From positions 1 to 33,741 of the forward strand of contig JANYGT010000098.1 in assembly GCA_025362355.1 (NCBI GenBank): a stretch of DNA of 33,741 bases, in the 5' to 3' direction. Origin of the DNA: Lacisediminihabitans sp. (GTDB lineage Bacteria; Actinomycetota; Actinomycetes; Actinomycetales; Microbacteriaceae). The translations under genes were made by a program, and so were the position numbers. Under the pieces are notes generated by a model. That model searched no databases. It worked only from the letters and a program-made list of their open reading frames with translations, and was not told where the DNA came from. This document shows positions 16,869-33,741 of this stretch, piece by piece. Within the stretch, counting starts at the first letter, position 1. Each line of letters opens with the position of its first letter.

Positions 16869-17047
16869 CCTTTCACCAGAAAGAAAGCGGCACGAAACCC
16901 GGGACGGTTCAACCTGCATGAAATCCGGACGGTTCACATTCACCGTCGCAATTACCGGGGGCCTCACGAACCAGAGGGGTTTCGTGCTCCGCGATGGCAG
17001 AATCCTGCGGACCATCCCTTTGCGCCCTCGCGCTCCGCAGGACCACA

Positions 17048-17854
17048 ATGGGCACAAGGAGTGCGATGCCGCAGCAGATCGTGAGCAACGAGGCCACCAG
17101 CCACAGCGTGACGTCCCGCGCGCTCGCCGTGTTTGCCGCGTTCGAAAACACCACCGGGCCATTGACCGTCGCGAGAATCGCCCAGCGTGCGCAACTCCCC
17201 CTTTCGACGGCCTATCGCCTGATCCACGAGCTCGAGGCGTGGGGTGGGGTGGATCGTCTCACCGACGGCACCTATCAAGTAGGGATGCGCATCTGGGAGC
17301 TCGGTCAGCTTGCGGGTCGCCGACTTCGTGACCGTGCGCATCCGTTTTTGCAGGATTTGTTCGATCTGACCCACGAGAACGTACATCTTGCTGTGCGGGA
17401 GGGGACCCAAGTGCTGTACATCGACAAAATCTATGGCTCCCGCAAGGTGCCGATGGTCTCGCGGGTCGGTGGGAGGTTACCTCTTCATACGACTGCCGTC
17501 GGACGGGTATTGCTTGCGGCGGAGCCCCAGTGGTTCGTCGATGCTTACGTTCAGCGCGAGTTGGAAGCGCCAACCGAGCGAACCCTCATCGACCCGGAAG
17601 GGCTCAGGGCCGTGATCTCAAGTGCCGCCACAGATGGCTACTCGATCACGGTAAATCAAATGCGAGTCGGTTCATGCTCGATTGCGGTGCCCGTTGTCGT
17701 CGAGGGTAACTGCGTCGCCGCCGCGGGTGTCGTCATCGAAGCCGCGCGATCGGGCGAGGCGCGCCGATTCCTCCCCCTTCTTATGTCGACTGCTGAGCGC
17801 GTGCAATCGGCCGTGCTTTCACAACCGCTGCGTCATACCCTCCAGCGACGCTGA
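17048..17854 (+). CDS. IclR family transcriptional regulator (start ATG 17048 or 17066)
   Basis: HTH 'LTVARIAQRAQLPLSTAYRLIHELEAWGGVDRLTDGTYQVGMRIWELG' and effector domain 'LPLHTTAVGRVLLA', 'CSIAVPVVVEGNCVAAAGVVI'. Confidence 0.94.
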   Translation: MGTRSAMPQQIVSNEATSHSVTSRALAVFAAFENTTGPLTVARIAQRAQLPLSTAYRLIHELEAWGGVDRLTDGTYQVGMRIWELGQLAGRRLRDRAHPFLQDLFDLTHENVHLAVREGTQVLYIDKIYGSRKVPMVSRVGGRLPLHTTAVGRVLLAAEPQWFVDAYVQRELEAPTERTLIDPEGLRAVISSAATDGYSITVNQMRVGSCSIAVPVVVEGNCVAAAGVVIEAARSGEARRFLPLLMSTAERVQSAVLSQPLRHTLQRR

Positions 17855-17859
17855 GCAGC

Positions 17860-17880
17860 GATTCTCACTGGATGGGAATC
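17860..17880. promoter_or_regulatory. Imperfect palindrome between iclR and the P450 operon; candidate IclR operator
   Basis: GATTCTCACTGGATGGGAATC: arms GATTCTCA/TGGGAATC match 7 of 8; lies about 65 bp upstream of the P450 start. Confidence 0.4.
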
Positions 17881-17944
17881 ACCGCTAGGTGACTGTCGTT
17901 TCGGGGCGCACGATGAATCATCACAAGGTTCGAGGAGGAACGTG

Positions 17945-19186
17945 ATGAGCGTTGATGTTGCGGTGCATGAGCACCACGGGTTCGAAGCATTCGCCATGGG
18001 CGATCCGTTCCCCGTGTATGAGGAACTTCGTCGCGAAGAGCCCGTGATGTTCGACGAGAATATCGGCTACTTCGTGATAACCCGCTACGACGACATCAAG
18101 GCTGTGTTCGCCGACTGGGAGCACTTCTCCTCGGAGAACGCACAAGCACCAATCCGCCCCGCGGGTGAGCCCGCCAAGCGGGTCATGGCTGAGGGCGGCT
18201 TCACCGCGTACTCCGGCCTCTCCGCCCGTGTGCCCCCGGAGCACACGCGCATCAGGAATGTCGCCACCAAGGCCTTCACGCCCCGACGCTACAAGGTGCT
18301 CGAACCGCTCGTGCGCGAGAACGTCGATCGTCTCATCGACCGCATGCTCGCCGCCGGGCCCCCGGCCGATATCGTCGCCGGCCTCGCGTGGGATGTCCCG
18401 ACCATCACGATCCTCACCCTGTTGGGTGTCTCGACCGACATGATCCCGCTGGTCAAGGAATGGGCGGGAAGCCGTGCGGCGATGACCTGGGGTGACCTCA
18501 CTGACGAGGAACAGGTGCCACACGCTCACAACCTCGTCGCGTACTGGAATTTCTGCCAGAAGCTCGTCGCTGACTCGAAGCGCGACCCGCAAGACGATCT
18601 CGTGGGGGACATGGTGCGCCTGCAGGCCGACGGCAACGAGATCAGCGATCACGAGATCGCCTCGTTCCTCTACAGTCTGTTGTTCGCCGGACACGAGACC
18701 ACGACGACTCTCATCTCCAACGCGCTGCGTGTTCTGCTCGGTCATCCCGACCAGTACCGCGAGCTCGGCGCTAGTCCAACAGCCATCCCCGCCGCGATCG
18801 ACGAGGTTCTCAGGTTCAGTCCGAGCATTGTCGCGTGGCGGCGCAAGGCGCTCGCCGACTCCGAGATCGGTGGAGTGACGATCCCCAGGGGGTCGAACGT
18901 GCTCCTGGTCATGGGTTCGGCGAACCGTGACGAAACGGTGTTTGACGAGCCAGACCTGTTCGACATCGCCCGGAAGAACGCTCGCAGCCACCTGTCGTTC
19001 GGTTTCGGCATCCACTACTGCCTGGGTAACCTGCTCGCCAAGCTCCAGGTGAAGGTTGTGCTCGAAGAGATCACCGCGAAGATTCCCGGTTTGAGGCTCA
19101 TCGAAGACCAGCAGATCGTGTTCGGCGACAACCTGTCCTTCCGGGCGCCGACCGCCGTCGCCGTGACCTGGGGCGAGGGCAACTGA
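17945..19186 (+). CDS. creJ: Cytochrome P450, CreJ-like (symbol inferred from operon content and order)
   Basis: I-helix 'LLFAGHETTTTL', ExxR region 'IDEVLRFSPSIVAWRRKAL', heme motif 'FGFGIHYCLG'; RBS GAGGAGG just upstream of ATG 17945. Confidence 0.95.
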   Translation: MSVDVAVHEHHGFEAFAMGDPFPVYEELRREEPVMFDENIGYFVITRYDDIKAVFADWEHFSSENAQAPIRPAGEPAKRVMAEGGFTAYSGLSARVPPEHTRIRNVATKAFTPRRYKVLEPLVRENVDRLIDRMLAAGPPADIVAGLAWDVPTITILTLLGVSTDMIPLVKEWAGSRAAMTWGDLTDEEQVPHAHNLVAYWNFCQKLVADSKRDPQDDLVGDMVRLQADGNEISDHEIASFLYSLLFAGHETTTTLISNALRVLLGHPDQYRELGASPTAIPAAIDEVLRFSPSIVAWRRKALADSEIGGVTIPRGSNVLLVMGSANRDETVFDEPDLFDIARKNARSHLSFGFGIHYCLGNLLAKLQVKVVLEEITAKIPGLRLIEDQQIVFGDNLSFRAPTAVAVTWGEGN

Positions 19187-19188
19187 TC

Positions 19189-20259
19189 ATGGGCATCTAC
19201 ACCTTCCCCTTCGACAGCACCGAGACTCCCGTTCACGAGCGCCTCGGCGGCAAGTGCACGAGCCTCGCGATCATGACGTCGGTCGGTGCGCCGGTTCCGC
19301 CCGGGTTTGCGATCACGACCGATGCCTTCGACGCGGTCATGAATCAGACGACTCTGCGCGAGCACATACTGCGCGTGCTCGACGGACTCGACGTGGATGA
19401 CACTGCCGAGGTCGAGCGTCGCGCCGCCCACGTCCGCGAACTCATCCTCACCCAAACGGTTCCGGACGATGTGCGCCACGAAACGATTGCCGCGTACGAC
19501 GCGCTGATGCAGCTGTGCGGTGGAGAGGTCCCCGTGGCGGTGCGCTCGAGCGCGACCGCCGAGGACTTGCCGGATGCGAGCTTTGCCGGCCAGCAAGACA
19601 CCTACCTGTGGATTACGGGACAGAAGGATGTCCTGCAGAAGGTCCGCGAATGCTGGGCGAGCCTCTACACTGCGAGGGCGATCACCTACCGTGCCGCCAA
19701 CAAGATCCCGGACGAGGGCTTGTCGATGGCGGTTGCAGTACAAAAGATGGTCAACTCGCGCACCTCCGGTGTCGCGATGACGATCGATCCCAAGAACGGT
19801 GACCGCTCGAAGATCGTCATCGACTCCAGCTGGGGGCTCGGCGAGCTCGTTGTCTCGGGTGAAGTAACGCCCGACAACTACCTCATCGACAAGGTTCTGC
19901 TGCAGGTGATCGATCGCATCATCAGCGATAAGCATGAAGAACTCGTCCCGACCGGACACGGCACCGTCGCACGACGTGAAGTGGATGCCGAGCGCCGCAA
20001 CTCCCCGAGCCTCAGCGACGAAGAAATCGTCGCCGTCGCTCGCCTGGCCAAAAGCGCCGAGAGGCACTACGGAAGCGTCCAGGACGTGGAATGGGCGATC
20101 GACGCTGACCTGCCCGCGGGGCAGAACGTGCTTCTGCTCCAGTCCCGGCCCGAAACCGTCTGGTCGCAAAAAGCGAAGCCCGTACATCACACGTCGAGCG
20201 GCTCCGGCATCGAGGCGATCACCAAGTCGCTGCTCGCCCAAATGGGCAGTCGAGCCTAG
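19189..20259 (+). CDS. creI: PEP/pyruvate-binding (PPDK_N, ATP-grasp) subunit of a split PEP-synthase-like phosphotransferase; comparable to phenylphosphate synthase PpsB / cre-type kinase subunit (creI vs creH assignment from gene order only)
   Basis: 'GGKCTSLAIMTSVGAPVPPGFAITTDAFDAV', 'VAVRSSATAEDLPDASFAGQQDTYLWITG', 'LLLQSRPETVW'; lacks the swivelling His domain. Confidence 0.9.
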   Translation: MGIYTFPFDSTETPVHERLGGKCTSLAIMTSVGAPVPPGFAITTDAFDAVMNQTTLREHILRVLDGLDVDDTAEVERRAAHVRELILTQTVPDDVRHETIAAYDALMQLCGGEVPVAVRSSATAEDLPDASFAGQQDTYLWITGQKDVLQKVRECWASLYTARAITYRAANKIPDEGLSMAVAVQKMVNSRTSGVAMTIDPKNGDRSKIVIDSSWGLGELVVSGEVTPDNYLIDKVLLQVIDRIISDKHEELVPTGHGTVARREVDAERRNSPSLSDEEIVAVARLAKSAERHYGSVQDVEWAIDADLPAGQNVLLLQSRPETVWSQKAKPVHHTSSGSGIEAITKSLLAQMGSRA

Positions 20260-20351
20260 AACACGACCGAATACTTCAGGGCCACCGCCGATGGCTCAGG
20301 ACACCCCTGTCTTCACCCGAGTACGACGAACACCGAGAAGGGCACAACGCA

Positions 20352-22175
20352 ATGACGCACACCGCCGCCCGTAAGAGTTTTGATTCTCCCTATGACCTCG
20401 AAGCGCCGCCCGGCGCCGAGGGCTGGAGAGATCTCTACCCCTATAACTTGATTTTCCAAGAGAATCTGCGCGACAAGGAAAACGCCAAGTTCTGGTTCTG
20501 TGACAGCCAGCACTGGCCGAATGTCTTCAAGCCGTTCGAGACTGTCGGCGTTGAGTTCGCGGTTCGGTGCCTCGGCGCATTCAACACCCGCCACTACATC
20601 ATCCCGCCGGCCAACGGCATCGAGTTCCGCATCCACAACGGCTTCTGCTACATGAGCCCGGTTGCCGTCGCACCCGAACTCATCGGCGACCGCGTTCCTC
20701 ACTTCATGGAGCGCGCCGGTCACTACTTCGCAAATTGGGATTCCCTGCTCGAGAACTGGAAGAAGAAGGTGCTCGGCACCATCTCGGAGATGGACGCGAT
20801 CAACTTCGAAGCGCTTCCCGAAATGGTCGACCTTGACGTCATCACCGGCGGGCTCGGTATCGACCCGTCCGCGAAGATGATGGCCGACTACGACCGGCTG
20901 ATCCAGCTCGCCTACCAGAACTGGGAGTACCACTTCGAGTTCCTCAACCTTGGCTATGTGGCGTATCTCGACTTCTTCGGCTTCTGCAAGGAGTCGTTCC
21001 CGTCGATACCCGACCTCGCGATCGCGCGCATGGTTCAGGGCGTCGACTCGGTACTCTTCCGCCCGGATGACGAGCTCAAGGGACTCGCAGAACTGGCGGT
21101 GCGGCTCGGGCTGGTCGAGATCTTCGCCTTGCACGATGGGTCGGAGCAGGTGCTCGCGGTGCTCGCGGGCTCCCCGAATGGCACGGAGTGGATCGCAGCG
21201 TGGGAAGCCGCCAAAGAACCGTGGTTCAACTACACCTCGGGTAACGGGTTTTACGGTTCTGACGTCTACTGGCGCGACAACCTCGACCTCCCGATGGGCT
21301 ACGTAAAGGACTACGTCGAGCGCGCGGCGCGCGGTGACGTTCTCAAGCGCCCCACGACCGAGCTCATTGCCGAGCGTGACCGGATCGTCGGAGAGTACGG
21401 AGAGTTCCTCAGTGGTGAGGCCCTTGAGACCTTCCACGGCAAGCTCGGTCTCGCCCGCACGGTGTACCCGTATGTCGAAGACCACAACTTCTACATCGAG
21501 CACTGGACGATGGGCGTGTTCTGGCGGAAGGTTCGTCAGCTCTCCCGGCTGTTCCAGAGCTACGGTTTTTGGGAGAACCCCGACGACATGCTCTACCTGA
21601 CGCGCGACGAGGTGCGCCCGGTCATCTTCGACCTCGCGACCGGCTGGGGCGTAGGAGCCGATCCGATCGGCCCGACGTACTGGCCGACCGAGATCGAGCG
21701 TCGCCGCGGCATTGTCGCTGCGCTTTCGACAGCGCGACCGGAGCCCGCTTTCAATACACCGCCCGAGACGATCAACGAGCCATTCACGATCATGCTCTGG
21801 GGGATCACGACCGAGCAGGTTCAACAGTGGCTCGCCGGTGACGATGCGGAGAGTCCCGGGCTCAAAGGTATGGCAGCCTCTCCGGGAGTCGTCGAGGGCA
21901 TCGCTCGAGTCATCAGTGGTCCGGAGCAGCTCGGTGAGTTGCAACAGGGTGAGATCCTCGTTGCTCCGACGACGGCACCGAGCTGGGGTCCGATCTTCGG
22001 CAAGATCACGGCGACCGTCACCGACATCGGGGGCATGATGAGCCACGCGGCGATCGTCTGCCGTGAGTATGGCTTGCCCGCCGTGACCGGCACCGGGAGC
22101 GCATCCACGAAGATCAAGACGGGGATGCACATTCGGGTCGACGGCTCGCAGGGCATCGTCACGATTCTCGACTGA
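20352..22175 (+). CDS. creH: PEP-utilising-enzyme mobile-domain subunit with large substrate-binding region; partner of the upstream ATP-grasp subunit; comparable to phenylphosphate synthase PpsA (creH vs creI assignment from gene order only)
   Basis: C-terminal 'GMAASPGVVEGIARVI...EILVAPTTAPSWGPIF...GGMMSHAAIVCREYGLPAVTGTG' with predicted phospho-His in GGMMSH; no ATP-grasp motif. Confidence 0.9.
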   Translation: MTHTAARKSFDSPYDLEAPPGAEGWRDLYPYNLIFQENLRDKENAKFWFCDSQHWPNVFKPFETVGVEFAVRCLGAFNTRHYIIPPANGIEFRIHNGFCYMSPVAVAPELIGDRVPHFMERAGHYFANWDSLLENWKKKVLGTISEMDAINFEALPEMVDLDVITGGLGIDPSAKMMADYDRLIQLAYQNWEYHFEFLNLGYVAYLDFFGFCKESFPSIPDLAIARMVQGVDSVLFRPDDELKGLAELAVRLGLVEIFALHDGSEQVLAVLAGSPNGTEWIAAWEAAKEPWFNYTSGNGFYGSDVYWRDNLDLPMGYVKDYVERAARGDVLKRPTTELIAERDRIVGEYGEFLSGEALETFHGKLGLARTVYPYVEDHNFYIEHWTMGVFWRKVRQLSRLFQSYGFWENPDDMLYLTRDEVRPVIFDLATGWGVGADPIGPTYWPTEIERRRGIVAALSTARPEPAFNTPPETINEPFTIMLWGITTEQVQQWLAGDDAESPGLKGMAASPGVVEGIARVISGPEQLGELQQGEILVAPTTAPSWGPIFGKITATVTDIGGMMSHAAIVCREYGLPAVTGTGSASTKIKTGMHIRVDGSQGIVTILD

Positions 22176-22191
22176 GCAGGAAGGACACGCC

Positions 22192-22896
22192 ATGACTGCC
22201 TGGTCCCGCCCTCGGATCAACCATCTCGGACGAGATGTGAGCGCGCGTATTCCCCCGCGCGACACTGTTCCCGGTATGGTCTGGCTCGGCGAGCGGGACG
22301 AGGCGATCTGGCGGCTTGCCGCGTCGTACCTCACTGTTCGTGACAATGACGCCCACTCGCTTTATTCCTATGGGATCGCGCGGGCGCTGCTATCGCAGGT
22401 TCCCGAGGCCGACGAGCGGATCGTGCTTCCCGCCATACTTCTCCATGACACGGGGTGGTCAACGGTCGATGAGCAGGACGCGCTCGAGGCGATCGCTCCC
22501 GGTGGCGGCCGTCCGGACCTTGTCTTGCAGCACGAGCGCGAGGGCGCACGAATCGCGCGCGAAATCCTTAATGCCGTGGATGTACCCACGGCGGACATCG
22601 ACATCATCGTCGAGATCATCGACGGACACGACAGTCGAACAACGTCGCTGAGCATCAACGACTCCGTTGTCAAGGATGCCGACAAGCTCTGGCGGGTGAG
22701 CCCGCACGGCAGGGCCGTCGTGTGTGACTGGTTTGGCCTCGACGACGACGAGGCCCTTCGCCTGTGTGCGTACCGCGCCTATGACGAACTTTTCACCGAC
22801 GCGGGTCGGGCCATGTCCCGCGCACTCGTTGCGCTCGGTTCGATGCAATTGAGCCCGCAGATGGCTTCGGTCTACCGACGAGAGGAAAGCCAATGA
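22192..22896 (+). CDS. HD-domain protein (first paralogue); candidate phosphohydrolase
   Basis: Ordered metal-ligand pattern 'NDAHSLYSY', 'ILLHDTGWSTVD', 'LQHEREGARIAREIL', 'EIIDGHDSRT', 'VKDADKLWR'. Confidence 0.87.
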   Translation: MTAWSRPRINHLGRDVSARIPPRDTVPGMVWLGERDEAIWRLAASYLTVRDNDAHSLYSYGIARALLSQVPEADERIVLPAILLHDTGWSTVDEQDALEAIAPGGGRPDLVLQHEREGARIAREILNAVDVPTADIDIIVEIIDGHDSRTTSLSINDSVVKDADKLWRVSPHGRAVVCDWFGLDDDEALRLCAYRAYDELFTDAGRAMSRALVALGSMQLSPQMASVYRREESQ

Positions 22897-23645
22897 CTCA
22901 TGCGGACGGTCGTGTTGTTCTCATCACGGGAGCTGGGGGAGGGCTCGGGCGCGCTTTTGCGGTCGGCTTCGCCGCGGCAGGCGATCGAATCGTCGTCGCT
23001 GATATTGACGCGGCGGGAGCCCATCGCACGGTTGAGCTGCTCGCCGCCGAAGGTGCTGATGCCCTCGCTGTTCGGGTCGATGTGACCAAGAAGGCATCCG
23101 TCGAGGCACTCATCGACACGGTCATCGACCGCTATGGTCGGCTCGACGTCGTCGTCAACAACGCTGCGATCTACGCGACTCTCACACGCACGCCGTTTGC
23201 TGAGATCGATCCCGACGAGTGGGACCGCGTCATGGCGGTCAACGCGAAAGGCACATGGCTGGTCTCGGCTGCGGCCTACCCCCGCATGACGAAGCCCGGC
23301 GGTCGAATCATCAACATCGCGTCGGCCACGGTAATGAGTGGGTCTCCGCTGTGGATGCATTACGTGGCATCGAAGGCGGCGGTTATCGGCATGACCCGAG
23401 TGATGGCCCGCGAGACCGGATCAGAAGGCGTGACCGTCAACGCGATCGCGCCCGGCTTCACGCTTACCGAGGCGAGCATGGGATTGATGGATGATGCCGC
23501 GACCTATGGCGTCGATCGCGGCGCGATCAAGCGCGCGAGCCAACCCGACGACATCGTCGGTACCGCCGTGTTTCTCGCCTCCGATCAGGCGAGCTACATC
23601 ACCGGCCAAACTCTCATCGTCGACGGCGGCAAACAGTTCATTTGA
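22893..23645 (+). CDS. creG: SDR family oxidoreductase, candidate aryl-alcohol dehydrogenase (CreG-like by position)
   Basis: 'VLITGAGGGLGRAFAVGFAAAGDRIVVADID' Rossmann motif, 'NNAA', catalytic 'YVASKAAV'; ATGA overlap with the upstream gene. Confidence 0.92.
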   Translation: MTHADGRVVLITGAGGGLGRAFAVGFAAAGDRIVVADIDAAGAHRTVELLAAEGADALAVRVDVTKKASVEALIDTVIDRYGRLDVVVNNAAIYATLTRTPFAEIDPDEWDRVMAVNAKGTWLVSAAAYPRMTKPGGRIINIASATVMSGSPLWMHYVASKAAVIGMTRVMARETGSEGVTVNAIAPGFTLTEASMGLMDDAATYGVDRGAIKRASQPDDIVGTAVFLASDQASYITGQTLIVDGGKQFI

Positions 23646-23675
23646 TCGGCCACCCGGCCACCCAAGGAGTCAGCA

Positions 23676-23999
23676 ATGCCCAGCATCACCTACATATCCC
23701 CGAACGGCACGTCGACCACCCTCGACGCGCGAGTCGGAGACTCCGTGATGGAGGTCGCGGTCAAGCACGGCGTCGACGGGATTGTCGCCGAATGCGGGGG
23801 CGCGTGTTCGTGTGCCACGTGTCACGTCTACGTCGACGCGGCATTTCAAGAGACCGTTGGCGGGCCGGGCGAGCTCGAAGACGACATGCTCGACGGCGCC
23901 GCATCCGAACGATTGTCGAACAGCCGACTCTCGTGCCAGATCAAAATGCGCGACGAGTTCGATGGCCTGACTGTGCACGTAGCCCCCGAGCAGCTGTAG
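23676..23999 (+). CDS. creF: [2Fe-2S] ferredoxin, putidaredoxin/adrenodoxin type (CreF-like by position)
   Basis: 'ECGGACSCATCHVYVD' plus 'LSCQIKM' cysteine ligand pattern. Confidence 0.94.
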   Translation: MPSITYISPNGTSTTLDARVGDSVMEVAVKHGVDGIVAECGGACSCATCHVYVDAAFQETVGGPGELEDDMLDGAASERLSNSRLSCQIKMRDEFDGLTVHVAPEQL

Positions 24000-24001
24000 T
24001 C

Positions 24002-25243
24002 ATGGATGACATCCTCATTATTGGCGCCGGACAGGCCGGCATGCAGGTCGCTGTGTCATTGCGCGAACATGGATTCACCGGGCCGATCACGCTCGCGGGT
24101 AGCGAACGGGCGACCCCGTATCAGCGTCCCCCGTTGTCGAAGGCATATTTGTCGGGTGAGGCCGATCTCGAGTCGCTCGAGTTGCGCGCACAGTCGTTCT
24201 ACGACGACCGCCTCATCGCCGTGCGCTGCGATGATGCGGTCGTGTCGGTCGCGTTCGAGGGGGGCGACGGGGTGGCCGTTACGGCGTCAGGTTCGCGAAT
24301 CCCGTTCGCGCAACTGGCTCTCACTCCGGGCTCGGAGCCGCGCCGGGTCTCGATTCCCGGTTGTGACCTGGCCGGTGTCCTGTATCTGCGTGACCTGGCT
24401 GATGCCGATGAACTCAAGGCTCGCTGGGGTGCTGCCGGGCGCGTCGTCGTCATCGGGGGCGGCTTCATTGGACTCGAGGTGGCCGCGGCGGCTCGCAAAG
24501 CGGGAAAGACCGTCACGGTGCTCGAGGCGGCCGATCGACTGATCGCGCGAGCGGTGTCTCCCATCACGAGTGAATTCTTCAGACAAGCACATGCCCGCCG
24601 GGGTATCGACGTCCGGGTATCCGTGCAGGTGACCGGCATCCTCGGAACCGGTGATATCGTCACCGGCGTCGAGCTTGCCGACGGGGAGGTCGTGCCCGCT
24701 GACATCGTGCTCGTCGGTATCGGGGTGATCCCCCGCTCGGCACTTGCCGAGCAACTCGGCCTCAAGCTCGTTGGTGGCGCGATCGTCGTCGACGAGTTCG
24801 CGCGGACGAGCGATCCTCGGGTCGTGGCGGCAGGGGATGCCGTGCTGATGCCGCATCCCCTTGGGCGCCCGGGGCAGGTTCGACTCGAATCCGTGCAGAA
24901 CGCCGTCGATCAGGCGAAGGTCGCGGCGGCAACCCTGATGGGCGCGCCCGAGGCGTATCGCGCTGTGCCGTGGTTTTGGTCAGACCAGGCCGATCTCAAG
25001 TTGCAGATCGCGGGTCTGTCAACCGGCTTCGATCAGACCGTCGTGCGGGGCGACCCCGACGACGACCACTTTTCGGTGCTGTACTACGCCGAGGGCAAAC
25101 TCATCGCGATCGACACCGTCAATGACGCTTCCGACTACATGGTCGTTCGTCGCGCCCTTGGTCGGGGTGCCACAATTCCGCCGGAGCTCGCATCCGACAC
25201 ATCCGTCTCGCTCAAGTCCCTCCTCGTTCCCGCTGCGGCATAG
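24002..25243 (+). CDS. creE: NAD(P)H-dependent ferredoxin reductase, putidaredoxin-reductase type (CreE-like by position); ORF-track start 23642 is an artefact
   Basis: 'DILIIGAGQAGMQVAVSLREHGFTGPITLAGSE...PYQRPPLSKAYL', 'VVVIGGGFIGLEVAAAARKAGKTVTVLE', 'VVAAGDAVLMPHPLG'; starts directly after the ferredoxin stop. Confidence 0.94.
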   Translation: MDDILIIGAGQAGMQVAVSLREHGFTGPITLAGSERATPYQRPPLSKAYLSGEADLESLELRAQSFYDDRLIAVRCDDAVVSVAFEGGDGVAVTASGSRIPFAQLALTPGSEPRRVSIPGCDLAGVLYLRDLADADELKARWGAAGRVVVIGGGFIGLEVAAAARKAGKTVTVLEAADRLIARAVSPITSEFFRQAHARRGIDVRVSVQVTGILGTGDIVTGVELADGEVVPADIVLVGIGVIPRSALAEQLGLKLVGGAIVVDEFARTSDPRVVAAGDAVLMPHPLGRPGQVRLESVQNAVDQAKVAAATLMGAPEAYRAVPWFWSDQADLKLQIAGLSTGFDQTVVRGDPDDDHFSVLYYAEGKLIAIDTVNDASDYMVVRRALGRGATIPPELASDTSVSLKSLLVPAAA

Positions 25244-25255
25244 AAAAGGCACCCC

Positions 25256-25900
25256 ATGTCAAGACCATCCGTGACCGTCGACACGCTCGCCACCGGCCAT
25301 TCACCGCGGGGAGACTGGAAGCCGCTCGACGACCTGTGGCGAGCCGCCGCGCCGTCTCTCAGGGCGCGATCAAACGACATCCACACTCCGTTGTCATTCA
25401 TGTTCGCAGAGCTCGTGCTCGAGGCGCACCCCGAAGCAGACGAACTCGTGACGCGAGTCGCCATCCTTCTACACGACAGCGGGTGGTCACGAGTGGATCC
25501 CGCGAAGATCATCTCCGAGGGATTCCGCGGGGATTGGCGCACGAGCGATGTGCGATATCTCCATGAGCAGGAGGGCTGCAATATCGCTCGTGAAATCTTG
25601 CCTGCGCTGGGATACGACGACGAGTTCATCGCGAAGGTCACGGACATCATCGACGGCCACGACACGCGGCTCGAGCACCGGAGTGTCGAGGACGCGATCA
25701 TGCGCGACGCGGACCGTCTCTGGCGATTCACCCCAACGGGCATCGGCCTCGCCTCGGGGTGGTTTGGCAAGACTCCCCGCGAATACCGTGAGCAACTAGA
25801 GACCGGTACCTATCCCGAACTCATCACCGAGCGGGCGCGTGAGATCGCGACGGCCGAACTCACTCGTTCCGTAGAGCTACTCAAACTCGATGTCCTCTAG
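25256..25900 (+). CDS. creD: HD-domain protein (second paralogue), CreD-like by position; candidate phosphohydrolase
   Basis: 'NDIHTPLSF', 'ILLHDSGWSRVD', 'LHEQEGCNIAREIL', 'DIIDGHDTRLEH', 'MRDADRLWR' parallels the protein at 22192-22896. Confidence 0.87.
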   Translation: MSRPSVTVDTLATGHSPRGDWKPLDDLWRAAAPSLRARSNDIHTPLSFMFAELVLEAHPEADELVTRVAILLHDSGWSRVDPAKIISEGFRGDWRTSDVRYLHEQEGCNIAREILPALGYDDEFIAKVTDIIDGHDTRLEHRSVEDAIMRDADRLWRFTPTGIGLASGWFGKTPREYREQLETGTYPELITERAREIATAELTRSVELLKLDVL

Positions 25901-27371
25901 GACTGACGACATGACCACGATCGGGGACCTGAACGTCTACGACGACATCTTCGTCGGCGGACGCTGGCAGCCCGCGAACTCGTCACGATTCATCGAGGTC
26001 GTCAATCCCGCAACGGAACATGTGTGGGCTCGCGTACCAGACGCGGACGCCGCCGATATCGATGCCGCAGTGAACGCGGCGCACGGGGCTTTCATCGGCG
26101 GGGGGTGGAGCGACATCGGCGCAACCGCTCGCGCCACCATCATCGAGCGGTTCGCCGACGAGCTCGCGGCCCGAGGCGAGGCAATGGCGGCGGTGATCAC
26201 GCGGGAGAACGGGACACCCTTGACCGAGACATCGGCCGCGGCATCCCACTCGGCCGGTATCTTGAGGTATTTCACCGGGCTCGCGCCTACCGTCGATGCG
26301 GAAGACACGCGGCCGTTTCCGAATGCGCCCGGGTCGTTCACGACGGTCCGCAGGCAACCGGTAGGGGTATGCGCACTCATCGCGCCGTGGAACTTTCCGC
26401 TCACGCTCGTCATGGTCAAGCTTGCGCCTGCCCTGGTCGCCGGCTGCACTGTTGTGATCAAGCCCGCGTCCGAGACGCCGCTCGACCTGCGGGTACTTGT
26501 CGAGGCCGCGGTTGCCGCCGGGATCCCCGATGGCGTGATCAATATCGTCACCGGGTCGCGCGAGGCGGGGGCACTGCTGGTGCAGCATCCGCTTGTGGCG
26601 AAGGTCGCATTCACGGGGTCGACCGAGGCGGGGCAGATCATCGCGGCGCAATGTGGAACCCTGCTGCGTCCGGTAACGCTCGAACTCGGCGGAAAGTCGG
26701 CGAGCATCGTGCTGCCTGACGCCGACCTTGACTACTTCGCGAGTGTGCTGAATCGCACGTGCCTGCGGAACACGGGACAGACCTGTTACAACTCGACACG
26801 CATCCTCGCGCCGCGGTCACGATACACGGAGGTCGTCGACCTCGTCGCTATGACGGTCGCGGCAACCAAACAGGGCGACCCCTTGGACAGAGCGACGGTG
26901 TACGGCCCCTCCGCCTCTGCCCGTCAGCGAGATCGCGTCGAGAATTACATCGCGATCGGCAAGGCGGAGGGTGCAACGGTTGCGACGGGCGGGGGTCGTC
27001 CGGTGGGATTGGACCGAGGCTTCTACGTGCAACCAACGGTATTCAGCAATGTTGCGAGCGGGATGCGGATCGCTCAGGAGGAGATCTTCGGACCTGTACT
27101 TGTCGTGATCCCGTTCGACGATGACGCCGACGCGGCACGGATCGCGAACGACTCGCGCTTCGGTCTCGGCGGGTCGATCTTCAGTACCGACGATGCCCGT
27201 GCGCTCGCTCTTGCCGACAGGATAGATACGGGAAGCATCGGGATCAACTTCTTCGGCTCGAACCATGCCGCGCCCTTCGGCGGCTGGAAGGACAGCGGAA
27301 TGGGCGTCGAGTACGGACCCGAGGGCCTTAGCGCGTACCTGCGGCTCAAGTCGATTCATCGAAAGGGCTGA
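25890..27371 (+). CDS. creC: NAD(P)-dependent aldehyde dehydrogenase (CreC-like by position); start ATG 25890 or 25911
   Basis: 'LELGGKSASIVLPDADLD', 'NTGQTCYNSTRI' catalytic Cys, 'EEIFGPVLVVIPF', 'FGGWKDSGMGVEYGPEGL'. Confidence 0.94.
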   Translation: MSSRTDDMTTIGDLNVYDDIFVGGRWQPANSSRFIEVVNPATEHVWARVPDADAADIDAAVNAAHGAFIGGGWSDIGATARATIIERFADELAARGEAMAAVITRENGTPLTETSAAASHSAGILRYFTGLAPTVDAEDTRPFPNAPGSFTTVRRQPVGVCALIAPWNFPLTLVMVKLAPALVAGCTVVIKPASETPLDLRVLVEAAVAAGIPDGVINIVTGSREAGALLVQHPLVAKVAFTGSTEAGQIIAAQCGTLLRPVTLELGGKSASIVLPDADLDYFASVLNRTCLRNTGQTCYNSTRILAPRSRYTEVVDLVAMTVAATKQGDPLDRATVYGPSASARQRDRVENYIAIGKAEGATVATGGGRPVGLDRGFYVQPTVFSNVASGMRIAQEEIFGPVLVVIPFDDDADAARIANDSRFGLGGSIFSTDDARALALADRIDTGSIGINFFGSNHAAPFGGWKDSGMGVEYGPEGLSAYLRLKSIHRKG

Positions 27372-28925: not shown

Positions 28926-29406
28926 CGCCGCAGTGTACGACCCGAATCGAGCTACTTTGCCTAGAGTGCTGGTCAAGAGCACTTTCTCATCAAAGCGTTC
29001 TCGACGACCCCGGTGGCTGGCACACAAATCCGCATCGCAAGATAATTGGCTGATGAGAGCCGCCTCTCTCGCCCGAGGGTGAGTGAAATCCGGCCGAAGC
29101 CCGCCCTAACCCCGAATATTCAAATGGCGCCGACCATGCAAATTTGCCGACTGACTGATTCGTCTGAGTAGGAGACGAGCGAGGCTGAAAGACCGACGGC
29201 CGGAGACGATCGAAACCCACGCACAGCGTTCACCTGTCGGTGGGCTGGACAAGTCCAGAAGCCAATCACTCGACGGTGGTGGTCTTCCTTTCCGACTCGA
29301 AAGCAAACGGCATCAAACCGGAGACGGTTCAGAGACGATGATTTTGGATGGATCGGGCGCTGCTCGGCAATTTCGTGAATGGCTCAGTTGAACGATCCGG
29401 GGTACA

Positions 29407-30462
29407 TTGCGGGCAATGATGCTGGCATTTCCCTTTTGGCTTCTGGTAAGTATTTTCTTGGCTGGTGCAGCGGTGATCTGGTTCTCCGGAATTCAGCTTT
29501 CAAAAACCACTGACGTGCTCGATCACCGATTTCACCTGGGAAGCGCGATCGGCGGACTCGTTGTTCTAGCCGTGGCTACCAACCTTCCCGAAATAGCGAT
29601 CACGGTGAGTGCTGCCCTCTCCGGGTCGATCGGGGTTGCAGCCGGCAATATTCTGGGCGGCATTGCGCTTCAAACGGTGGTGCTCGTGGTTCTCGACGTC
29701 CTCGGAAAGCGCGCCAGTGGTGCAAAACCACTCACCTACCGTGCCGCCTCGCTCCAACTAATGTCGGAAGCTCTTATCGTCGTCGCTGTGCTTTCGGTCG
29801 TCATCGCCGGGACGCAGCTGCCGCCGGCTCTTCTCATTGCGCGGGTCACGCCGAGCGGGGTGTTGATCGTGGTCGTTTGGGTCGTCGGCCTCTTGCTGGT
29901 TCGACGCGCGGGTAAGACCCTCCCTTGGCACGAAGGCGGTCGGGCGCCTGATGCGTCCCTGCGCCCGCCGAAACAAGCCCCCGCGGGCAGCACTCGCCGG
30001 GCAGCAGTCGTCTTCGGACTCGCGGCCTTAGCTACGCTCATCGCTGGAGTCGCCGTGGAGCAAGCCGGAGACGCTGCGGCACAACAGATCGGCTTTTCAG
30101 GGGTGCTTTTCGGAGCGACGGTGTTGGCTCTGGCCACTAGTCTGCCGGAAATATCGACCGGTCTTCAGGCTTTGAAACAGGGCGACGACAATCTTGCAAT
30201 GAGTGACATCTTCGGCGGAAACGCGTTTCTTCCCGTGCTTTTCTTCGTGGCAACTCTGATCTCGGGAAAAGCCATCCTCCCGCAGGCAAACCCGAGCGAT
30301 ATCTATCTCACCGCGCTTGCCATTCTCCTGACCCTCGTCTACGCGGTCGGACTTCTCTTCCGGCCACATACGCGGGTCGCCGGAATGGGGATTGATTCGC
30401 TCATTGTCCTTCTGCTGTACGTTGCCGGACTCGGTGGACTTATCGCAATCAACCTCGGATAG
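29407..30462 (+). CDS. CaCA-family sodium/calcium exchanger-like membrane protein (start may be ATG 29416)
   Basis: Two inverted-topology repeats: 'GSAIGGLVVLAVATNLPEIAITVSAAL' and 'VLFGATVLALATSLPEISTGLQAL', each followed by 'GNILGG'/'SDIFGGNAF'. Confidence 0.88.
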   Translation: MRAMMLAFPFWLLVSIFLAGAAVIWFSGIQLSKTTDVLDHRFHLGSAIGGLVVLAVATNLPEIAITVSAALSGSIGVAAGNILGGIALQTVVLVVLDVLGKRASGAKPLTYRAASLQLMSEALIVVAVLSVVIAGTQLPPALLIARVTPSGVLIVVVWVVGLLLVRRAGKTLPWHEGGRAPDASLRPPKQAPAGSTRRAAVVFGLAALATLIAGVAVEQAGDAAAQQIGFSGVLFGATVLALATSLPEISTGLQALKQGDDNLAMSDIFGGNAFLPVLFFVATLISGKAILPQANPSDIYLTALAILLTLVYAVGLLFRPHTRVAGMGIDSLIVLLLYVAGLGGLIAINLG

Positions 30463-30513: not shown

Positions 30514-31365
30514 TCAGTGTTCATCGGCTAGCGCCATTTGGATGTAAATGGCCGCGAGAATCATAAACACGTAGGCCTGCAGGGCGCTGACGAATATGTC
30601 CATAAGAGAGAATGCCAGGCCGAAAACGAACGACCCGACTCCCAGAAACCCGAGTGGATTTCCTCCGGCCAGGACGGAGAAGAAGAAGAACTGAGTGGCC
30701 GCGAAACAGAGCGAGAGCAGCATATGCCCGGCGATCATGTTCATCAGAAGCCGAAGCGTCAGAGTTATCGGGCGCAGCACGAACGTCGAGAATATTTCGA
30801 CTGGAGTGAGAAGGAAGTACAGCGGCCAGGGCACCCCGGGAATGAAAAGCGCGTTCTTGAAAAAACGCCACGAATGCTTGCGAACTCCTGCGTAGATGAA
30901 GAGAACATAGGCGACCAAAGCCATTATCAGAGGCAGGCCCACGACGGACGTCCCGGCCAGTTGCAGCCCGGGAACGGTCCCGGTGAGGTTCATGGCCAAA
31001 GTCAAAAAGAATATGGTCATCAACACTGGCATGAAGCGGCGACCGTCCTTCTCACCCAGCGTTTGAACCACGCTGTTTCGGACGAAAACCAGGGCAAATT
31101 CGACCGCGGCCTGCTGGCGGGTGGGCACTACCTTCATGCGGCGCGTACCAGCCCACAGGACAATCACAAGCACCACCACGACGAGCAGACGGATCATCAT
31201 GAGCCTGTTCAGTTCGAACGGCGTGCCCTTGAACAGGATGGCAGGGGGAAGAAAATCGGCGAGCGACGGGCCGACGAATCCACCGCCGGGCTCCGGCGCA
31301 GCGGCGGGCGGGAGCACCGTCTCGAGAGGTGGTATCAGTTGACTTCTCCAGCGTCGGTCGCCCAC
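30514..31365 (-). CDS. atpB: F0F1 ATP synthase subunit a (orphan copy)
   Basis: 'PPAILFKGTPFELNRLMMIRLL', 'FMPVLMTIFFLTLAMNLTGTVPGL', 'LTLRLLMNMIAGHMLL' (conserved Arg), 'FVSALQAYVFMILAAIYIQMAL'. Confidence 0.95.
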   Translation of the reverse strand: MGDRRWRSQLIPPLETVLPPAAAPEPGGGFVGPSLADFLPPAILFKGTPFELNRLMMIRLLVVVVLVIVLWAGTRRMKVVPTRQQAAVEFALVFVRNSVVQTLGEKDGRRFMPVLMTIFFLTLAMNLTGTVPGLQLAGTSVVGLPLIMALVAYVLFIYAGVRKHSWRFFKNALFIPGVPWPLYFLLTPVEIFSTFVLRPITLTLRLLMNMIAGHMLLSLCFAATQFFFFSVLAGGNPLGFLGVGSFVFGLAFSLMDIFVSALQAYVFMILAAIYIQMALADEH

Positions 31366-31409
31366 TTAAGGGTCGGTAACATATTTGATTCCACTGTAAC
31401 CCAAATTAG

Positions 31410-31423
31410 TTGCGCTTGCGCAA
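31410..31423. promoter_or_regulatory. Inverted repeat TTGCG-N4-CGCAA, copy 1, between atpB and marR; candidate MarR operator
   Basis: TTGCGCTTGCGCAA; same consensus recurs upstream of ctaD. Confidence 0.55.
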
Positions 31424-31427
31424 TCAC

Positions 31428-31937
31428 ATGGAGAATCTCGACGCGATGGCGAATCCCCAACAAGCACCAACAGGCGCGATGGTCGACGCAGTCCTGGCTG
31501 CAGCCAACGTTTTAATGCGCGTGGCCGCGCGATCGGTCGTCGAGGTTGAAGACTCCGTCTCGAGCCCTCAACTAAGGGTCCTGGTATTCGTCTCGCTACA
31601 CGGAGCGCAATCAGCGGGCGCGATAGCACGCGAGTTAGATGTCCATGCCTCCAACGCGACGCGCATTTGCGACCGATTGATACGTCTGGGTTTCCTCATT
31701 CGTAGCGAAAGCGGCGGAGATCGGCGGTTCGTCAGACTGGAGTTGACGAGTGGGGGAGCAGAGCTGGTTTCGAAGGTCTTCGAGCAGAGGCGTAACGACC
31801 TCGCTACTGTATTCGGCTCTGTTCCCGCCTCCAAGCGCGAGGCGGTCATGGATGCCTTCCGCATCTTCGCAGCGGCGGCGGACGTCGAGGGCTCGACCGA
31901 CGGACGATTCGCTTTGGGGCCTCCACAAAAGCCGTGA
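31428..31937 (+). CDS. MarR family transcriptional regulator (start ATG 31428 preferred over TTG 31410)
   Basis: wHTH 'SSPQLRVLVFVSLHGAQSAGAIARELDVHASNATRICDRLIRLGFLIRSESGGDRRFVRLELTSGGAELV'. Confidence 0.92.
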   Translation: MENLDAMANPQQAPTGAMVDAVLAAANVLMRVAARSVVEVEDSVSSPQLRVLVFVSLHGAQSAGAIARELDVHASNATRICDRLIRLGFLIRSESGGDRRFVRLELTSGGAELVSKVFEQRRNDLATVFGSVPASKREAVMDAFRIFAAAADVEGSTDGRFALGPPQKP

Positions 31938-32086
31938 CGCGCTCGCTGTCCGCCGACGGTCTGATCGAGACGACCGACATCGGAATTGCCTCGTTCGGTA
32001 GGAGATTTGGCGAAGGCTCGGCCCCGGAATCTGCTGTACCGACGATTTGACCGCACACACTCTGTACGTGTTTCTTACCTAGATGA

Positions 32087-32100
32087 TTGCGTGCGCGCAA
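32087..32100. promoter_or_regulatory. Inverted repeat TTGCG-N4-CGCAA, copy 2, upstream of ctaD
   Basis: TTGCGTGCGCGCAA; arms identical to the copy at 31410-31423. Confidence 0.5.
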
Positions 32101-32200
32101 CCACTTCCACTTGTGGGCTGAAAGCAGTTCAATAGAAAGCAATTCATGGGGAAGCGTCGAGGCGTGTCCTTCCCGCCACTGCCAAGGAAGGTACGAGCCG

Positions 32201-33741
32201 ATGTCCGATATTAAGGAAAGGCGCGGAGCTCTCCGTGGCGGCGCGAACACTGCTGGTGTCGCTGTGTCGGCTGAGCGCAAGGGCAACATCGTCGTCAAGT
32301 GGATCACCACCACTGACCACAAGACGATCGGCTCGCTGTACCTGGTCACGGCCTTCCTCTATTTCCTGCTCGGCGGGGTCATGGCGCTTGTCATCCGCGC
32401 CCAACTGTTCGAGCCCGGAAGCACCCTGCTCGCCACGAAAGACCAGTACAACCAGCTGTTCACGATGCACGGCACGATCATGCTGCTGATGTTCGCGACG
32501 CCTCTCTTCGCCGGATTCGTGAACGCCCTGATGCCGCTCCAGATCGGAGCTCCGGATGTCGCTTTCCCCCGCCTGAACGCCTTCGCATACTGGCTCTACA
32601 GTTTCGGTTCCCTGATCGCGGTCGCTGGGTTCCTCACCCCGCAGGGGGCCGCCTCCTTCGGCTGGACGGCGTATGTGCCCCTCTCGGAGACAACGTTCTC
32701 ACCTTCTCTCGGAGGAAATCTCTGGGTCTTCGGCTTGGCTCTGAGCGGGTTCGGCACCATCCTCGGTGCCGTCAACTTCATCACCACCATCATCACGATG
32801 CGTGCGCCCGGCATGACTATGTTCCGTATGCCGATCTTCACCTGGAACGCGCTCGTCACCTCGATCCTCGTGATCATGGCGTTCCCGGTGCTCGCAGCCG
32901 CGCTGTTCGCGCTCGGTTCCGACCGGGTGTTCGGCTCGCATCTCTACAACGTCAGTTCCGGTGGGGCGATCCTCTGGCAGCACCTGTTCTGGTTCTTCGG
33001 GCATCCGGAGGTCTACATCATCGCGCTGCCGTTCTTCGGCATCATCTCCGAGGTGCTGCCGGTCTTCAGCCGAAAGCCGATCTTCGGATACAAGACCCTG
33101 GTCTATGCGACGATCTCGATCGCGGCGCTGTCGATCACGGTGTGGGCGCACCACATGTACGTCACGGGGTCGGTGCTGCTGCCGTTCTTCTCGCTGATGA
33201 CGATGTTGATCGCGGTTCCGACGGGGGTGAAGATCTTCAACTGGGTCGGCACGATGTGGCGGGGCTCCGTGACTTTCGAGACGCCGATGCTGTGGGCGAT
33301 CGGATTTCTGATCACCTTCACGTTCGGTGGTCTGACCGGAGTCATCCTCGCCTCTCCTCCGCTCGACTTCCACGTCTCCGACACCTATTTCGTGGTGGCC
33401 CATTTCCACTACGTCGTGTTCGGTACGGTCGTCTTCGCCATGTTCTCCGGGTTCTATTTCTGGTGGCCGAAGTGGACGGGCAAGATGCTCAACGAGCGTC
33501 TCGGGAAGATCCATTTCTGGTTGCTGTTCGTCGGATTCCACACCACGTTCCTCATCCAGCACTGGCTGGGTGTGCTCGGTATGCCGCGTCGGTACGCGAC
33601 CTATCAGCCCGGTGACAACTTCACCTGGATGAACCAGCTCTCCACCCTCGGTGCGATGCTGCTCGGGGTGTCGATGCTGCCGTTCATCTTCAACGTCTAC
33701 ATCACCTCCCGCAGGGGCAAGGTCGTGACGGTGAACGACCC
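32201..33741 (+). CDS. ctaD: Cytochrome c oxidase subunit I (aa3-type heme-copper oxidase), partial: runs off the window end and is therefore missing from the ORF track
   Basis: ATG 32201; '[47 protein letters not shown]', '[22 protein letters not shown]', 'WAHHMYVTG', '[11 protein letters not shown]' ligand motifs; open to 33741. Confidence 0.95.

Follow-up and report, generated by a model that had tools for sequence, protein, structure and literature searches.

A MarR-family regulator with predicted operators at its own gene and at extra copies of atpB and ctaD in Lacisediminihabitans sp.

The inverted repeat TTGCG-N4-CGCAA, which has two exact matches and no others in the window (the whole stretch of Lacisediminihabitans sp. 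DNA analysed here, 33,741 nucleotides of contig JANYGT010000098.1), is well supported by comparison between genomes as the putative operator of the MarR-family regulator encoded between the two sites. The repeats are read as operators because they cluster at marR genes and recur before the same gene families in related bacteria. We suggest, with a probability of roughly 0.7, that the MarR protein binds these sites, represses its own gene together with a spare atpB and a spare ctaD, and is released by a stress signal, whereupon the spare subunits are made. The predicted control of these three genes by the MarR, the core of the original prediction, is thus well supported by comparative genomics.

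The regulator and the shared repeat

Both repeats, with identical arms, lie at the coordinates first proposed for them. Operator 1 (TTGCGCTTGCGCAA, positions 31410 to 31423, no strand assigned) is situated between the divergent atpB and marR genes, and its position before marR orthologs is conserved; operator 2 (TTGCGTGCGCGCAA, positions 32087 to 32100, likewise unstranded) precedes ctaD, and the marR-adjoining ctaD of genome G208 also has an exact site. The two are more alike than first noted, for site 1, once reverse-complemented (TGATTGCGCAAGCGCAACTA), is identical to site 2 (TGATTGCGTGCGCGCAACCA) at 16 of 20 positions. The proposed spacing to the start codons needed some revision: the distance of 100 bp to the ctaD ATG (position 32201) stands, the distance to the atpB GTG (position 31365) is 44 bp rather than 45 bp, and the marR ATG at position 31428, 5 bp from the repeat, gives way to a likelier ATG at 31446, so that the operator ends 22 nt upstream.

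The marR gene (31446 to 31937, plus strand) encodes a MarR-type winged helix-turn-helix domain, with Pfam matches to MarR_2 (1e-11) and MarR (8e-11) above the gathering scores and MarR relatives in the PDB. A longer reading frame from 31428 is possible, but translation probably starts at 31446: a GGAG lies 10 to 15 nt ahead of this codon, and the operator is found 23 nt before the start in four marR orthologs (exact in G232, G113 and the second copy of G040, with one mismatch in G134), the genes of these relatives having been called by a simple script and their start codons being uncertain. No consensus sigma-70 promoter or terminator was found around either operator, and for this reason we infer the operator-promoter geometry. 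Across the genomes, sites lie at promoter or start regions, often 2 to 6 nt before the ribosome-binding site of the gene for the small EGRYTQ protein described below, and it is this location, frequently abutting the ribosome-binding site, that points to repression as the probable mode of action.

Of 393 genomes sampled from the family, 14, distributed over five genera, carried the regulator or a close ortholog, and the 14 aligned orthologs displayed 47 to 54% identity. The 14 regulator-bearing genomes contain 53 exact sites, 25 of them within 3 kb of a marR gene against an expectation of 0.11, and an exact site was found no more than 300 bp upstream of 12 of 17 marR genes, as in the window itself, against a mean of 0.0065 in shuffles; kinship among these genomes means that the counts are not independent and that the probabilities make them look more so than they are, but the excess of sites at marR greatly exceeds anything that such a correction could remove. 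A few marR genes (that of G385 and one copy each in G232 and G271) have no clear site just upstream. The 37 sites judged to be regulon members also resemble one another beyond the bases used in the search, with approximately WYRR ahead of the arms and YYRW behind them, and the MarR dimer would recognize an extended palindrome of about WYRRTTGCGNNNNCGCAAYYRW. Some more-distant MarR homologs, from the order and the class, also have sites with at most one mismatch close to the gene start.

In the window's own genome (78.8% complete; 304 contigs, 3.19 Mb), the exact pattern occurs three times and a reversed control pattern twice, so that by number alone the 10-base pattern does not rise above the genomic background. 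Two of the three sites form the present locus, 677 bp apart (approximately 0.7 kb) and both intergenic. The third, at C58:19904, falls within the start of an open reading frame, a position that makes it an unlikely operator. The concern that the motif might be common at random is not borne out, as exact sites are rare and clustered at marR.

Among solved structures, the best match by far is Rv1404 of Mycobacterium tuberculosis (PDB 2nyx), with a profile E value of 8e-33 against 3e-18 for the next and, with the single sequence, an E value of 2e-16 over a whole-length alignment. In PMC5936775, which cites Healy et al. 2016, Rv1404 is described as a MarR regulator of acid adaptation. Both proteins are actinobacterial MarR regulators with neighbouring genes as known or, in the window, predicted targets, but the targets named for Rv1404 in that account are the methyltransferase genes rv1403c and rv1405c, whereas the window MarR neighbours atpB and ctaD; the recognition-helix residues also differ. 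Rv1404 is named here as the nearest relative on the strength of its best-match status among solved structures. AesR of Corynebacterium glutamicum (PMC13413800) is likewise an autoregulated, stress-related MarR with an inverted-repeat operator and a divergent operon linked to respiration, for cytochrome c biogenesis, but its operator is of the ACTATG-N3-CATAGT type, it has only two adjacent target operons and it responds to metal ions. MalR of the same species (PMC6536590) resembles the window MarR as an actinobacterial MarR with a multigene stress regulon and a palindromic operator, and differs in the AT-rich nature of that operator and in its cell envelope targets.

The extra atpB and ctaD genes

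The atpB gene (30514 to 31365, minus strand; Pfam ATP-synt_A, 1.5e-50) encodes F0 subunit a and is not part of an atp operon: no subunit c gene was found beside it, and a gene for a Na+/Ca2+ exchanger occupies its other side. The ctaD gene (32201 to 33741, plus strand; Pfam COX1, 2.4e-163) encodes subunit I of an aa3 oxidase and is cut by the end of the contig, although the truncated product still scores above the NCBIfam cyt_aa3_Actin cutoff. Both are extra copies, as originally proposed. The second atpB, on contig C304, belongs to the start of the usual wecA-atpI-atpB order and is 68% identical to the window copy over 127 amino acids; the second ctaD, on contig C59, follows ctaC and is 89% identical over 162 amino acids. 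The two predicted targets belong to the same protein families as the housekeeping atp-operon atpB and the ctaD of the ctaC-ctaD-ctaF order, but they stand alone, unaccompanied by the remaining subunits of their complexes, and each follows an operator not present at the housekeeping copies.

The last 141 bases of the window (33601 to 33741) are also the first 141 of contig C104, which completes ctaD and has no ctaF behind it, and C59 likewise ends inside the other ctaD, so that the assembly breaks at near-identical copies. An overlap of 141 bases has the appearance of an assembly k-mer, and the 3' portion of the window ctaD may therefore have been collapsed with the housekeeping copy. The same genome has a ctaF-like gene, for oxidase subunit IV, at L078:3648-4058 (G000:C58), apart from the ctaC-ctaD-ctaF order. 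A divergent extra ctaD (77% identity) is also found in G010, of the same genus, at L074:4607-6349, beside pilus-type secretion genes and with no operator.

A site with no more than one mismatch lies within 400 bp upstream of all five stand-alone atpB genes and of only 1 of 24 operon atpB genes, in the latter case at a distance of 316 bp; exact sites adjoin the stand-alone copies of the window, G232 and G271. For ctaD, the link to the operator comes from two genomes: among 26 ctaD genes, the site (up to one mismatch) is found upstream of two only, those of the window and G208, and both adjoin marR. The conservation of the atpB-marR-ctaD arrangement, which was named as a check on the prediction, is apparent in G208, a member of another genus, where one cluster with operators comprises atpB, a short-chain dehydrogenase gene, ctaD, marR and genes for a GH15 enzyme, carbonic anhydrase and a Na+/Ca2+ exchanger.

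A fully supported clade unites the stand-alone atpB genes of G100, G208, G232 and G271 but excludes the window copy, which branches instead with a copy from its own genus. Each of the extra ctaD genes in the window, G100 and G208 clusters with copies from the same genome or genus. An ancient atpB-ctaD pair that travelled together with marR is therefore unsupported. The window atpB and ctaD look like lineage-specific duplicates and, for that reason, appear to have been recruited to the MarR independently; the alternative is that gene conversion keeps the extra copies close to the housekeeping copies. Either reading suggests that the combination is selected.

Wider predicted targets and the possible function of the regulon

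In related genera the same regulator would also control a small protein with an EGRYTQ motif, a Na+/Ca2+ exchanger, a nitronate monooxygenase and an aquaporin. Families found beside an exact site in more than one genome include marR itself (11 genomes), the nitronate monooxygenase (G067, G306 and G360), a MIP-family aquaporin (G002 and G134) and a sigma-factor-like gene divergent from a transporter gene (G306 and G360). Members of the exchanger family follow an exact site in both G232 and G271, and a site with one mismatch in G208. In the window, the exchanger gene (29407 to 30462, plus strand; Pfam Na_Ca_ex, 2.8e-22), on the far side of atpB and facing it, is a probable neighbour of the module, and no canonical operator with up to two mismatches was found before it. 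A different and tighter palindrome, ATTGC-GG-GCAAT at 29406 to 29417, overlaps its likely start codon.

The EGRYTQ protein, which has no Pfam or NCBIfam match, is a recurrent family beside exact sites and was present in 12 of the 14 regulator-bearing genomes, as against 0 of 18 sampled genomes that lack the regulator (Fisher P, 4e-7). A site with no more than one mismatch lies in the 200 bp upstream of every one of its 15 closest copies, exact in 14, and the G002 copy has an exact site too; nine more-divergent paralogs have no site within that distance. In G385 the two exact sites are remote from marR, and each immediately precedes a copy of the gene. Examples of the gene are found at L127:8899-9135, L143:4767-5069 and L144:4502-4753.

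Taken together, the predicted targets resemble an ion, acid or energy stress regulon more than a response to an inhibitor. The releasing signal would probably be a stress that affects ion balance, pH or the proton gradient, which is a guess, and pH is a reasonable first candidate because Rv1404, the nearest solved relative, is reported to be an acid stress regulator. An alignment of 15 MarR sequences contains no invariant cysteine, and a simple thiol switch is therefore unlikely. Upon release, the spare subunits could join the housekeeping ATP synthase and oxidase or supplement them. The most ambitious form of this proposal is a tentative one: that the ATP synthase and aa3 oxidase take up spare subunit a and subunit I on demand through a conserved actinobacterial MarR switch, each lineage having independently recruited its own duplicates, so that both main proton machines are remodelled under transcriptional control.

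A general stress or stationary-phase regulon is a serious possibility, if short of an even chance. In this reading the MarR would respond to desiccation, osmotic stress or acid, and atpB and ctaD would be minor members, adding capacity without replacing any subunit. It would accommodate the aquaporin, the exchanger, the sigma factor gene and the GH15 enzyme as well as the acid stress role described for Rv1404, and it overlaps our preferred explanation, differing mainly in the part assigned to the subunits; the repeated recruitment of single spare subunits is left unexplained by it. The original prediction offered two readings, an energetic adaptation, which may still apply, and target substitution against a respiratory inhibitor. 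In the latter, the MarR would sense an inhibitor of respiration or of the ATP synthase and switch on insensitive forms of subunit a and subunit I. Small-molecule sensing is common among MarR proteins, both genes are extra copies and both products belong to known drug target complexes, but we regard target substitution as improbable: no gene for inhibitor biosynthesis or efflux was seen with the module, and the exchanger, aquaporin, small protein and nitronate monooxygenase do not fit a response to one inhibitor. In addition, the window AtpB retains the essential arginine motif, TLRLLMN, unchanged, and the stand-alone copies, that of the window included, show scattered changes with no common residue signature at the conserved arginine region.

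It is more doubtful still that the palindrome, as a real regulatory site, is bound by some regulator other than the neighbouring MarR. The 5 of 17 marR genes that lack an exact site within 300 bp upstream could be cited in favour of such a factor, but the clustering of sites about marR is seen in five genera, the small target gene is missing from the 18 sampled genomes that lack the regulator, and arms of 5 bp are in keeping with binding by a winged-helix dimer. Chance proximity of two background matches, for which the similar genome-wide counts of the repeat and its reversed control might be invoked, is rejected on the comparative counts at marR and is contradicted by the recurrence of sites before the same gene families in other genera.

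Significance and neighbouring genes

Autoregulated MarR proteins with a local regulon are familiar. What appears to be new is a regulon centred on single spare subunits of the oxidase and the ATP synthase. The literature search, which had most subscription journals outside its reach, found no MarR-controlled atpB or ctaD paralog and no second atpB of this type. Subunit a carries the proton half-channels of the ATP synthase and, to our knowledge, the conditional exchange of a single subunit such as this has hardly been documented in bacteria. That duplicates of atpB and ctaD seem to have been recruited independently to a single regulator suggests that selection has favoured changing the two proton machines together, and the module points to a real, apparently undescribed switch that meets energy or stress demands as they arise. 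The operator, the regulator and the list of targets make the idea directly testable in culturable relatives and provide a tag with which the regulon may be found elsewhere.

Further upstream, positions 16994 to 27371 of the window contain a likely cluster for the degradation of phenolic compounds, with genes for an IclR regulator, a P450, two HD-domain proteins, a short-chain dehydrogenase, a ferredoxin reductase and an aldehyde dehydrogenase, together with a split PPDK_N and PEP-utilizer pair that resembles the two-component dikinases CreHI and HpeHI.
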